A stretch of DNA of 64,000 bases from assembly GCA_029863245.1 (NCBI GenBank), contig JAOTVV010000001.1, forward strand, positions 124,001-188,000. Direction: 5' to 3'. Positions 51,700 to 58,898 of the stretch are shown piece by piece. Source of the DNA: Gemmatimonadota bacterium. GTDB taxonomy: Bacteria > Gemmatimonadota > Gemmatimonadetes > Gemmatimonadales > GWC2-71-9. Position 1 is the first letter of the stretch. Each line of letters starts with the position of its first letter. The notes beneath the pieces are model-generated. The model did not search any database. It was not told where the DNA came from and saw nothing but the letters and a program-made list of their open reading frames with translations. A program made the position numbers and the translations under genes.

Positions 51700-52647
51700 C
51701 TAGGCGGTTCGTTCCCGGCCGTGCTGATGGCGCGCGTAGAACGCGACCAGCTTGTGCACCAGTTTGGCGGCAAGAAAGTCGGGAGCGACGATCCCGGGAA
51801 GGGGGGCCAGTTCCACGACGTCGCAGCCCACGACACGCTTTTCGCGGAACACGGCCTCGAGCAATTCGATCGTGGGATACCATTGCCCGCCTCCGGGCTC
51901 CGGTGTGCCGGTCGACGGCATGATCGCGGGGTCGAAGTAGTCCACGTCGAACGTGATGTAGACGTCGTCACCCAGTGCGGCAAGGACCCGATCGCTCCAG
52001 CCGGGCCGCGCCAACTCGTGCCCGAACACCACCGGGATGTCCCTGGCCCGCGTCAACGCCCGTTCCTCGGCGGTGAGCGCTCGGATGCCCACGGGCACGA
52101 GGCGAACTTGCTCATGCACCCGATGCATGACGCACGCATGGGAGTACGGTGTTCCCTCGTACTCCTCCCGCAGGTCGGTGTGGGCATCGAACTGCAGCAC
52201 CGACAGCGGCCGCCCGAGCCGGTCGGCGTGCGCGAGGATAGGGGGTCCCGAGACGGAATGCTCGCCGCCTAGAAGGATCACGAACTTGCCGTCGTCCAGC
52301 ACAGCGTCGTAGGCCGTACGCAGCTCCTGCAACGCCACCTCGGGGCCGGCGCCAGAGAGCAGCAACTCCGGCAACGTGTGCACGCCCACGCGGTACGGCT
52401 CGAAGTCCAACTCGTGATCGTACAGCTCGATGTACCGCGATGCGTGCAGCAGGGCCCCCGGGCCGAAGCGCGTTCCGCCCATGTAGGAGACCGTCGCTTC
52501 GTAGGGCACCGGCAGCACGACGACCGGCGACTCCGCGTAGGGGCATTGGCTCGGCGGGAGACCGAGGAACGACTCCGGTGGGGCCCACGCGAGCGACTCC
52601 AAGGGTGGGGGGAGCTTCTGACCCCCGCGGTCCCGGAACTCGTTCAC
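51700..52647 (-). CDS. speB: Agmatinase/ureohydrolase family
   Basis: VLPVPYEATVSYMGGTRFGP, ILLGGEHSVSGP, LQFDAHTDLREEYEG, YITFDVDYFDPAIMPSTGTPEPGG. Confidence 0.92.
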   Translation of the reverse strand: MNEFRDRGGQKLPPPLESLAWAPPESFLGLPPSQCPYAESPVVVLPVPYEATVSYMGGTRFGPGALLHASRYIELYDHELDFEPYRVGVHTLPELLLSGAGPEVALQELRTAYDAVLDDGKFVILLGGEHSVSGPPILAHADRLGRPLSVLQFDAHTDLREEYEGTPYSHACVMHRVHEQVRLVPVGIRALTAEERALTRARDIPVVFGHELARPGWSDRVLAALGDDVYITFDVDYFDPAIMPSTGTPEPGGGQWYPTIELLEAVFREKRVVGCDVVELAPLPGIVAPDFLAAKLVHKLVAFYARHQHGRERTA

Positions 52648-53204
52648 CCGCAGAACACGACGGCGCTCACGGCGGTCACCCACCGCCCGTCATCCTGGGC
52701 CTCGGCGGAGCAGCTGATGTTCATCGAGTCCACGATCTCACCGGACACACGCCATTGTTCGCGGCGCTCGTCCCAGGCCTGGTCTGGGTCGAACGGCACG
52801 CCCAGCACCGTCGCGAGCATACTGGCCGCCAGATCTTCCGCGTAGTCACCGGCCGGCTGCTGGCGCTCCCCGAAGGCGTGATGCTCGGAGATGTATCCGT
52901 GGTGGGCTTCATCGGCGGGAATCGCGAGGCCAATGGCTGCCGTCGCCAGCCGAGACGGCTCGTTGGTCGAGGCCTCGGCGACGACAGAGAAGACGACCTG
53001 CCCGGGCTGGAGCAGCTTCACTCCCTTCTCGCGGGGCACCAGCTCGCAATGCGGCGGCCAGATGGAGCTGACACGAACGAGGTTGTACTGCGCAATGCCC
53101 GCCTCGCGAAGCGCGAGCTCGAAGCTCGTCAGCTTCTCCTTGTGGCGTCCGACCCCCTTGGTGAGAAACGCCTTGGAAGGGAGAAACGTGGAGGGATCAA
53201 TCAC
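52644..53204 (-). CDS. pdaD: Pyruvoyl-dependent arginine decarboxylase
   Basis: AGIAQYNLVRVSSIWPPHCE proenzyme cleavage region, GYISEHHAFGE; GTG start at 53204. Confidence 0.9.
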   Translation of the reverse strand: MIDPSTFLPSKAFLTKGVGRHKEKLTSFELALREAGIAQYNLVRVSSIWPPHCELVPREKGVKLLQPGQVVFSVVAEASTNEPSRLATAAIGLAIPADEAHHGYISEHHAFGERQQPAGDYAEDLAASMLATVLGVPFDPDQAWDERREQWRVSGEIVDSMNISCSAEAQDDGRWVTAVSAVVFCG

Positions 53205-53214
53205 GGTGTGCGCC

Positions 53215-53691
53215 TCACTGGGGAGTGGCGGTTGATGTCTCCGGGTCTGCGACCCGGTCGAGCCGCGGCGCGGTGTCTGTCGCTGTCTCGATCGCGGGCT
53301 GGAAGCCGTTGTCTCTGAACCATCGATCCGGGGGAACTTCGACAGGAGGATGTGGATCACCGGTGCGCTCCTGGACCCCAGCGATCACCTCGTGCACGAC
53401 AGCGGGGGGGCTGTCGCCGACCTCCTCGACCGTCACGCGTCCCTGGCCGCGCTCGCGGCCCCGCACCACCAGCAGATAGCTCGCGGTATACAGTCGCCGA
53501 CGGTCGTCGTCCGTGCGGCAGGCGACCACCGCGGTGCCCCACTCGCGCTCCTCGCGACGGATCGGCGCGAACAACCAGACTCGGTCGATGGCGCTAGCGG
53601 GCACGGCACCGGAGAGCGATTGAACCACTCGCGTCCACCCTGGCCCGACGCCAGGCGTGGCTACCGCGCGTGCATACGTCTCAGCGTTCAC
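53215..53691 (-). CDS. Hypothetical protein (158 aa)
   Basis: Intact ORF, co-directional, 10 nt upstream of pdaD; no recognised domain. Confidence 0.6.
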   Translation of the reverse strand: MNAETYARAVATPGVGPGWTRVVQSLSGAVPASAIDRVWLFAPIRREEREWGTAVVACRTDDDRRRLYTASYLLVVRGRERGQGRVTVEEVGDSPPAVVHEVIAGVQERTGDPHPPVEVPPDRWFRDNGFQPAIETATDTAPRLDRVADPETSTATPQ

Positions 53692-56989: not shown

Positions 56990-57901
56990 TCACCACTCCT
57001 CTGTCAAGGCCCGAACGTGGGCCGCCGCCGCGTCCGCAATCCGGTCAGGCACGTACCCCCCTTCGAGCACCGACACGATCGGGACCGCGAACCGTCTCCA
57101 CCCACCGATCCAGGTGGCGAAGTCCGAAGGCTCCAACGTGAAACCGGCGAGCGGGTCACCGGCCATGGCGTCGAACCCTGCCGAGATGAGAAGGAGATCG
57201 GGCGCCCAGGCATCCGTGGCGCGCGTCACCGCTTCGTCCAGGTCCTCGACGTAGCGCTCTCGGGGGAGATCCGGAGGACGGGGCACGTTGAAGACGTTGC
57301 CAACCCCTCGCTCGTGGGCCAGGCCGGTTCCCGGATAGAGCGGCCACTGGTGGAGCGAGACGTATCGGATGCGGGACTCCCGTTCGACGAGCGCCTGGGT
57401 TCCGTTGCCGTGATGCACGTCCCAATCCACGATCAAGATGCGGTCGACACTCCGTTCCTCCAGCGCCGTCATGGCCGCAATCACAACGTTGTTGAGGAGA
57501 CAAAAACCCATCGCCGCCTCGGCGGTGGCGTGGTGTCCCGGTGGTCGGACGGGAACGAAGGCGTCCGTGCCCGTCTCCAGCGCCAGACCAACTGCCATGA
57601 TGGCCGCGCCGGCCGCGTGGAGCGCCGCGTCGAGGGAGTACTGGTTCGTAGACGTATCCGCATCGAGGCGCCCGCCTCCGCGCTCGGAAACGGCCTGGAG
57701 CCGATCGAGATGCGCCGCCGTATGCACGCGCAGCACGGCGCGCTCCGTGGCTGGCGCGGCCTCGTGCCAGATCAGGTGGTCCGGGGGGGGCCAAGTTCGG
57801 AGCCGCTCGAGGATAGATCGGGTTCGCGCGGGGGATTCCGGATGTCCGGGACCGGCGTCGTGGAGTTGAGACGAGGGATGCCAGACGATGTGAACCGACA
57901 T
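56990..57901 (-). CDS. Histone deacetylase-like amidohydrolase (#2)
   Basis: PGHPESPARTRSILERL, RPPGHHATAEAAMGFCLLNNVVIA, VDWDVHHGNGTQ, LISAGFDAMAGDPLAGF. Confidence 0.93.
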   Translation of the reverse strand: MSVHIVWHPSSQLHDAGPGHPESPARTRSILERLRTWPPPDHLIWHEAAPATERAVLRVHTAAHLDRLQAVSERGGGRLDADTSTNQYSLDAALHAAGAAIMAVGLALETGTDAFVPVRPPGHHATAEAAMGFCLLNNVVIAAMTALEERSVDRILIVDWDVHHGNGTQALVERESRIRYVSLHQWPLYPGTGLAHERGVGNVFNVPRPPDLPRERYVEDLDEAVTRATDAWAPDLLLISAGFDAMAGDPLAGFTLEPSDFATWIGGWRRFAVPIVSVLEGGYVPDRIADAAAAHVRALTEEW

Positions 57902-57943: not shown

Positions 57944-58213
57944 CTATCGTACCGGTTGCCGGCGGGTTGGCAACACGATGAGCGAGGCCCGATCGGCGAC
58001 ATTCAACGCGCCCAGGGTCTCGGACTCGTCGATCACCAGGGCGCCCCGATACTTGACCAGGTACAGGTCCGAGTCCAGGGTGCGGCCAGTGGCGAGGGTG
58101 AGCGCCGTGCGCTTCAGCCGCCGCATGGACCAGTCCGGTGCCGCGGTGACCTCGACAACGTCCCAGACATCGGGAACCGAGACCTTCACGCGGAGCGCGC
58201 TCGCCACGGTCAC
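57944..58213 (-). CDS. Small predicted beta-grasp (ubiquitin/YukD-like) protein, unknown function
   Basis: LRVKVSVPDVWDVVEVTAAPDWSMRRLKRTALTL…YLVKYRGALVIDESETLGALNVADRASLIVLP follows a beta-beta-alpha-beta-beta ubiquitin-like pattern; ATGA overlap with the upstream gene. Confidence 0.65.
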   Translation of the reverse strand: MTVASALRVKVSVPDVWDVVEVTAAPDWSMRRLKRTALTLATGRTLDSDLYLVKYRGALVIDESETLGALNVADRASLIVLPTRRQPVR

Positions 58214-58482
58214 CCGTCCACCTCATCACCCGCGGGTAGCGTGGAGAAGAACCGCCCGATCACCTGATCGAAGAACAGCGTGGATGCCCGGACGCGCGTG
58301 CCGGCCGAGCCTGGCTGCACCGCCAGCGTCAGCTCCTCCCCACCCTGTCCACGGAACGTCGCGAAGTGCGGACCTTCGAGCTCGACGAAGGCGGCATTGT
58401 GCGGCGCCCGCTCGGCGAAGAACGCTTTGGCGCGTCCGAGGACGTCGGCGGGTGGAAGCGATGTGATTGTCTCGTGGGTCAT
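58210..58482 (-). CDS. Small hypothetical protein, translationally coupled to the beta-grasp gene
   Basis: Intact 90-aa ORF; overlaps the next gene by 4 nt. Confidence 0.65.
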   Translation of the reverse strand: MTHETITSLPPADVLGRAKAFFAERAPHNAAFVELEGPHFATFRGQGGEELTLAVQPGSAGTRVRASTLFFDQVIGRFFSTLPAGDEVDG

Positions 58483-58538: not shown

Positions 58539-58898
58539 TCATGACGCCGGCCTACCGGGCGGCACCGGCCCGTCGGCGGCGGGGGTGACGGTAAGGAACG
58601 TCCGGAGCGCGGCCTCGAGTCGAGAGTTCGGCACCGCCACGGCGCCGGCCTCCCGAGCCGTTCGGAGGCTGTCCGCATCCACGTGTGATCCGAACGCCAA
58701 CACGCGCGTTCCCGCCTCGGTCAGGCGATGGATACGCTCTATCTGCTGGGGGCTCCCGAGCTCGACCACCGCGAACGACGCCGGGGTATCGCGGACCACG
58801 TGCCGGCCGAGCTGCTCTACCAGCGCCTCAATCCTGGCGCGGAAGAACAGGTCCCGCGCGAAGACCGCGACTGCCCCCTCAGTCCGCAAGATCGACAT
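58539..58898 (-). CDS. Receiver-like (pseudo-REC) domain protein
   Basis: AVAVFARDLFFRARIEALVEQLG…FAVVELGSPQQIERIHRLTEAGTRVLAFGSHVDADSLRTAREAGAVAVPNSRLEAAL: CheY-like alternation with no clear phosphoacceptor Asp. Confidence 0.6.
   Translation of the reverse strand: MSILRTEGAVAVFARDLFFRARIEALVEQLGRHVVRDTPASFAVVELGSPQQIERIHRLTEAGTRVLAFGSHVDADSLRTAREAGAVAVPNSRLEAALRTFLTVTPAADGPVPPGRPAS

Follow-up and report, generated by a model that had tools for sequence, protein, structure and literature searches.

Two small genes, encoding proteins that we term P90 and UBL, make up a module characteristic of Gemmatimonadetes, a class across which they lie side by side. P90 is the founder of an undescribed protein family, whereas UBL, as judged from its predicted structure, is a stand-alone protein of the ubiquitin-fold (β-grasp) superfamily. 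A second branch of P90 precedes another ubiquitin-fold gene, that of the molybdopterin synthase subunit MoaD.

The P90-UBL gene pair and its neighborhood

The window, a 64,000-nucleotide stretch of DNA, comes from a metagenome-assembled genome within Gemmatimonadales, an order of the phylum Gemmatimonadota. The two open reading frames of 89 and 90 residues and their 4-nt overlap, which an earlier note on this DNA had reported, were confirmed at their positions on the minus strand. The features of the pair are as follows:

58210..58482, minus strand: P90, 90 aa, ATG start, first gene of the pair (AlphaFold2, family searches)
57944..58213, minus strand: UBL, 89 aa, GTG start, C-terminus LPTRRQPVR, second gene of the pair
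58210..58213, minus strand: overlap between the P90 stop and the UBL start, 4 nt, GTGA (sequence)
57947..57964, minus strand: C-terminal tail R-R-Q-P-V-R of UBL, which replaces the R-Gly-Gly of ubiquitin (alignments, HMMER)
58052..58054, minus strand: K54 of UBL, invariant in Gemmatimonadales and aligned with Ile44 of ubiquitin
58333..58353, minus strand: turn R-G-Q-G-G-E-E of P90, residues 44-50 (alignments)

The GTGA overlap is expected to couple the translation of P90 and UBL. Among related genomes, UBL was matched in 38 of 41 and P90 in 37 of 41, normally in single copy and at adjacent positions, with sequence identities of roughly 40-76% for P90 and 28-55% for UBL. Because they recur in relatives together with conserved neighbors, P90 and UBL are real genes rather than chance reading frames.

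The families compared are f1 (that of the window), f2 and f3, which belong to Gemmatimonadales, and f6, f7 and f9, which belong to the same class outside the order. Conservation of the neighborhood, suggested by the earlier note as a check, bears out the pairing: UBL lies next to P90 on the same strand in 80/80 named Gemmatimonadota loci, all of which were chosen because they encode P90. The two genes overlap by 4 nt in 32 of these 80 loci and are separated elsewhere by a gap of at most about 70 nt. Within Gemmatimonadales, the usual flanks of the pair are GlyRS/M3 peptidase genes on one side and HDAC/PriA genes on the other. The pair stays intact in three loci of Gemmatimonadaceae whose HDAC gene lies about 8 kb off, and it is also present in f7 and f9 despite the different flanks there. 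Outside the module are the HDAC and REC-like/zincin flanks, which show only local conservation. The patterns of the genome-wide scan were built from the motif of Gemmatimonadales themselves, and their reach beyond the phylum is limited.

A few genomes depart from this arrangement. All four genomes of genus g48 (L202-L205) encode P90 with an intact RGQGGEE turn, directly followed by the HDAC gene, and have no UBL, while G021 has UBL without P90; hence neither protein strictly needs the other. Both are missing from G007 and G009, which are otherwise good genomes. Genus g48 represents a natural loss of UBL, useful for probing the function of P90.

The neighbors named in the earlier note fared differently. 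The HDAC-like protein matches Pfam Hist_deacetyl (6e-76) and the zincin matches Pfam Zincin_1 (1.2e-5), but the receiver label of the 119-residue "REC-like" protein is unsupported, as it matched no Pfam or NCBIfam family. This 119-residue protein (window 58539-58898), encoded next to P90, is conserved in several relatives. In addition, an agmatinase-like gene (51700-52683) and, next to it, one resembling pyruvoyl arginine decarboxylase (52644-53219), labels that come from reading the sequence only, are found a few genes away from the HDAC-fold gene (window 56990-57901), which may encode an acetylpolyamine amidohydrolase of a polyamine cluster.

Predicted structures of UBL and P90

The AlphaFold2 model of UBL (66 homologues, pLDDT 92.8) adopts a ubiquitin fold with the order β-β-α-β-(β). 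Structural similarity search using Foldseek revealed 626 PDB matches at E ≤ 1e-3, the best at about 1e-6, with TM-scores of 0.70-0.80; they include BilA (PDB 8tyx, E 1e-6, TM 0.80), ubiquitin variants and SUMO. The ubiquitin-like fold claimed by the earlier note is thus upheld by the confident model and the Foldseek E-value. Comparison of profile HMMs against a single domain of PDB ubiquitin gave an E-value of about 1e-5. Pfam YukD matched 27 of 47 members of the UBL family at E ≤ 1 (best 8.6e-5), and Pfam ubiquitin matched 17 of 47; the UBL of the window itself has no YukD match. The UBLs of Gemmatimonadales and of f7/f9 are homologous (hhalign 3.7e-21). The similarity of UBL to MoaD is distant (hhalign E 1e-3), and we rejected a recent duplication of MoaD as its origin, given this marginal value.

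Ubiquitin normally works through two surfaces, the C-terminal tail and the Ile44 face. The tail R-R-x-P-V-R is conserved across the UBLs of Gemmatimonadales, with R85 invariant and P87 nearly invariant, and a Gly-Gly tail is absent, as previously noted. Since HMMER aligns R85 with R74 of ubiquitin, Gly75-Gly76 of ubiquitin corresponds to x-Pro in UBL. The UBLs of f7 and f9 carry instead a tail of the form [FY]xG, with a single terminal Gly in 18/18, and, where ubiquitin has Ile44, an invariant Glu. With the tail and the Ile44 position changed lineage by lineage, both working surfaces of ubiquitin have been rebuilt, differently in different lineages. The mean charges in Gemmatimonadales are opposite, UBL being basic (+1.8) and P90 acidic (-1.8), whereas both proteins are acidic in f7/f9, so that a simple swap of charge between P90 and UBL is unsupported.

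P90 was also modeled with confidence (AlphaFold2, 67 homologues, pLDDT 91.7) and has a β-α-β4-α arrangement of five strands and two helices, namely E2-7, H11-24, E31-37, E40-45, E50-58, E61-68 and H72-80. Searches of Pfam, NCBIfam and PHROG assigned it to no family, nor did the PDB yield a significant sequence match; the earlier note was right that neither protein has a named family. Foldseek found no PDB fold for P90 at E ≤ 1e-3. Among solved structures, it comes nearest to SRPBCC/START proteins (E 4e-3 at best), part of whose fold it resembles, and to KA1 domains (TM 0.65). The KA1 structure 5wi2_B agrees with P90 in topology (TM 0.65/0.63), with sequence support absent, and P90 lacks the seven-stranded helix-grip architecture of the SRPBCC/START fold, which spans about 140 residues. 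A match of P90 to polyubiquitin chains was discarded as a repeat artefact, each repeat contributing about 3.6 bits.

Nearly all columns of the P90 turn are invariant in Gemmatimonadales, where the invariant positions include R44, G45, G47, G48, E49, E50 and F78; only Gly48 is widely common to the other P90 branches. The P90 groups are mutually homologous (hhalign 3.7e-13, 2.4e-26 and 3.1e-11).

A P90 branch linked to MoaD

The families f6, f7 and f9 possess a P90 paralogue that lies away from UBL. In 16/16 genomes examined from these families, it is located directly upstream of the MoaD-MoaE genes of molybdopterin synthase, on the same strand. Loci with this order include:

L206-L210, L212-L218, L220 and L221: P90, then MoaD, then MoaE

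An extra P90 copy in L211 has no adjoining MoaD. The spacing between P90 and the MoaD domain rarely exceeds about 120 nt; two loci have gaps of about 260 and 400 nt, and in another the genes overlap by 4 nt. The adjacent MoaD belongs to the ThiS family and ends in a C-terminal GG. In 19 Gemmatimonadales genomes, the MoaD-MoaE genes have no P90 in the flank examined. MoaD is a ubiquitin-fold protein and a true thiocarboxylate carrier. As MoaD itself has the ubiquitin fold, P90 genes, few exceptions aside, precede ubiquitin-fold genes of two kinds. The MoaD-linked P90 could be an accessory of molybdopterin synthase. Within f6, the MoaD-linked P90s (L206, L207, L209 and L210) share a conserved C-terminal extension, EEVRQ...GPG[AV]SGAG.

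In the best P90 tree, which is unrooted, the P90s of Gemmatimonadales group with the MoaD-linked P90s against the UBL-linked ones of f7/f9, with support of 100/100, a grouping that would imply that P90 changed its partner; the alternative tree was not rejected by the AU test (p 0.40). Given this p-value and a root that is not fixed, we do not claim a strict switch of P90 partner from MoaD to UBL.

Proposed role and comparison with known systems

We propose a co-translated, non-conjugating complex of P90 and UBL, with UBL as docking module and P90 as its partner or chaperone, an explanation to which we give about an even chance. The two proteins would be made together and bind each other non-covalently. 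The UBL of Gemmatimonadales would then act as an unconjugated docking or adaptor module that uses its rewired face, with a charged residue at the Ile44 position, and its Arg-rich tail, the latter as a binding peptide. P90 would assist UBL as partner or chaperone, and MoaD in the other families might be served by the same kind of P90 contact. The link to MoaD, together with the MoeZ, JAB, CysM, SerA and SerC genes near the pair in f7/f9, points to an ancestral setting in sulfur-carrier or cofactor metabolism. As the earlier note had proposed, an adaptor or assembly role stays the best reading, which we infer from the above.

That the P90 family also sits before MoaD hints at a partner devoted to ubiquitin-like proteins, of which there seems to be no previous description; in the literature searched, we found no paper on a ubiquitin-like protein of Gemmatimonadota. 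More tentatively, and with doubt outweighing belief, P90 might be a general partner of ubiquitin-fold proteins, first of MoaD and then moved in Gemmatimonadales to a UBL with rebuilt tail and Ile44 face, which would be the bacteria's own non-covalent ubiquitin-receptor pair. Bacterial ubiquitin folds that stand alone, with no conjugation machinery, such as YukD, RnfH and TmoB, are poorly understood. UBL is encoded almost throughout Gemmatimonadales, an order of common soil bacteria, and is linked to a small partner family whose genes also come before MoaD. Should P90 bind both UBL and MoaD, it would be a bacterial ubiquitin-fold receptor as well as an unrecognised accessory protein of molybdopterin synthase.

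Several other readings were weighed against the proposed complex. Two unrelated small housekeeping genes might have stayed adjacent by chance, as neighbors by inheritance only. The GlyRS, HDAC and PriA neighbors are likewise conserved in Gemmatimonadales, and the mirror-tree signal is not specific to the pair, with a partial correlation of 0.61 for P90-UBL versus 0.60 for P90 and its HDAC neighbor. Long-conserved gene order can by itself hold neighbors together, and the conservation of the pair partly reflects common descent. However, the pair outlasts a change of flanks, and a second P90 branch adjoins a second ubiquitin-fold gene, which is improbable at random unless the gene pair itself was duplicated; we thus regard inheritance alone as unlikely. 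Similarly improbable in our view is that UBL serves as a sulfur carrier or covalent modifier activated by a shared MoeZ/ThiF E1, with P90 as accessory and the tail of Gemmatimonadales secondarily altered. Such a role would fit the terminal Gly of all 18 f7/f9 UBLs, the location of P90 paralogues beside a thiocarboxylate carrier, and the JAB, CysO::MoeZ fusion, CysM, SerA and SerC genes within about 8-19 kb in some f7/f9 genomes. Yet the hallmark Gly-Gly of conjugated or activated ubiquitin-like proteins, whether terminal from the start or laid bare by processing, is replaced by a single Gly in f7/f9 and absent in Gemmatimonadales, where the tail has Pro at the Gly76 position. Moreover, no dedicated E1 adjoins the pair, and two f7 genomes lack JAB, which in G172 is encoded far away from the pair. 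Among the neighbors in the window there is no E1, E2 or JAB; most of 25 genomes have a single full-length ThiF, which is of housekeeping type and not beside the pair; and the Prok-E2_B search is to be read with the fact that its own controls went unmatched too. For Gemmatimonadales, the earlier judgement that a conjugation modifier is unlikely therefore stands, because there is no GG, Pro occupies position 76 and no E1, E2 or JAB adjoins, whereas the UBLs of f7/f9, with their terminal Gly, might be conjugated. In two loci (L255:3453-6378 and L257:8348-11540), a CysM-like PLP enzyme, a JAB peptidase and a ThiS::ThiF::rhodanese fusion (CysO-MoeZ) form a tight cluster, which lies near SerA-SerC and about 18 kb from the P90-UBL pair.

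Two further readings have far less to recommend them. Since the majority of UBL members match Pfam YukD, UBL might belong to a type VII secretion system as a counterpart of YukD. No secretion genes lie next to the pair, and a WXG100 protein was found in 0/25 genomes, while the B. subtilis control was found; to the extent that WXG100 is a marker of this system, its absence leads us to reject a secretion role in these genomes, and we consider such a role extremely improbable. Small overlapping gene pairs also call to mind a toxin-antitoxin or anti-phage module, which we hold to be very unlikely: the pair is near-universal in Gemmatimonadales, single-copy and set in housekeeping contexts. In addition, P90 has no PHROG match, PADLOC gave only a marginal 13.6-bit match, and no viral contig carries P90, so a defence or phage origin was rejected.

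Compared to known systems, UBL resembles ubiquitin and BilA in fold (TM about 0.8), but it lacks the GG, has a charged residue at the Ile44 position and is not part of an E1/E2/DUB operon. MoaD shares the ubiquitin fold, and in f6, f7 and f9 its gene immediately follows that of a P90 paralogue; it differs in its GG end and its merely distant similarity, and no MoaE follows UBL. Pup and UBact are intrinsically disordered and end in Gly-Glu/Gln, whereas UBL is predicted with high confidence to be folded and ends in PVR. YukD/EsaB is likewise a stand-alone bacterial ubiquitin fold without GG, and YukD has been described as not conjugated (PMC1779556); the marker of its secretion system is absent here, and UBL has the conserved RRxPVR tail and another partner.

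RatA-RatB (PasT-PasI) calls for a closer comparison, as P90 might be its counterpart, namely a minimal START/SRPBCC-like binder of small molecules or lipids with UBL as an RnfH-like partner, a possibility we consider rather remote. START and RnfH are a known conserved pair, as noted by Iyer et al. 2006 (PMC1779556), and SRPBCC proteins are among the top Foldseek matches of P90. The label of RatA as a toxin is disputed, a lipid-chaperone role being favoured, and PasT has been termed a lipid chaperone in work cited by PMC11988751. In E. coli, the START-domain gene ratA precedes the β-grasp gene yfjF with an 11-nt overlap, much like the order and overlap of P90 and UBL. Against this, profile comparison by hhalign gave no similarity to RatA or YfjF of E. 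coli, a weak test with single sequences; there was no real alignment of UBL with YfjF, and Ub-RnfH is not among its Pfam matches. P90 has five strands and 90 residues compared to about 150 residues, KA1 domains fit it at least equally well by TM-score, and no Foldseek match reaches the 1e-3 threshold. The P90-UBL pair also lacks a SmpB/BamE context and belongs to another phylum. As no sequence kinship was found, the resemblance is one of working alike, not of membership. RatA-RatB is the closest architectural parallel of P90-UBL: a two-gene operon with a START-domain or, for P90, a possibly START/SRPBCC-like protein first and a ubiquitin fold second, with overlapping ends and no conjugation machinery beside it.
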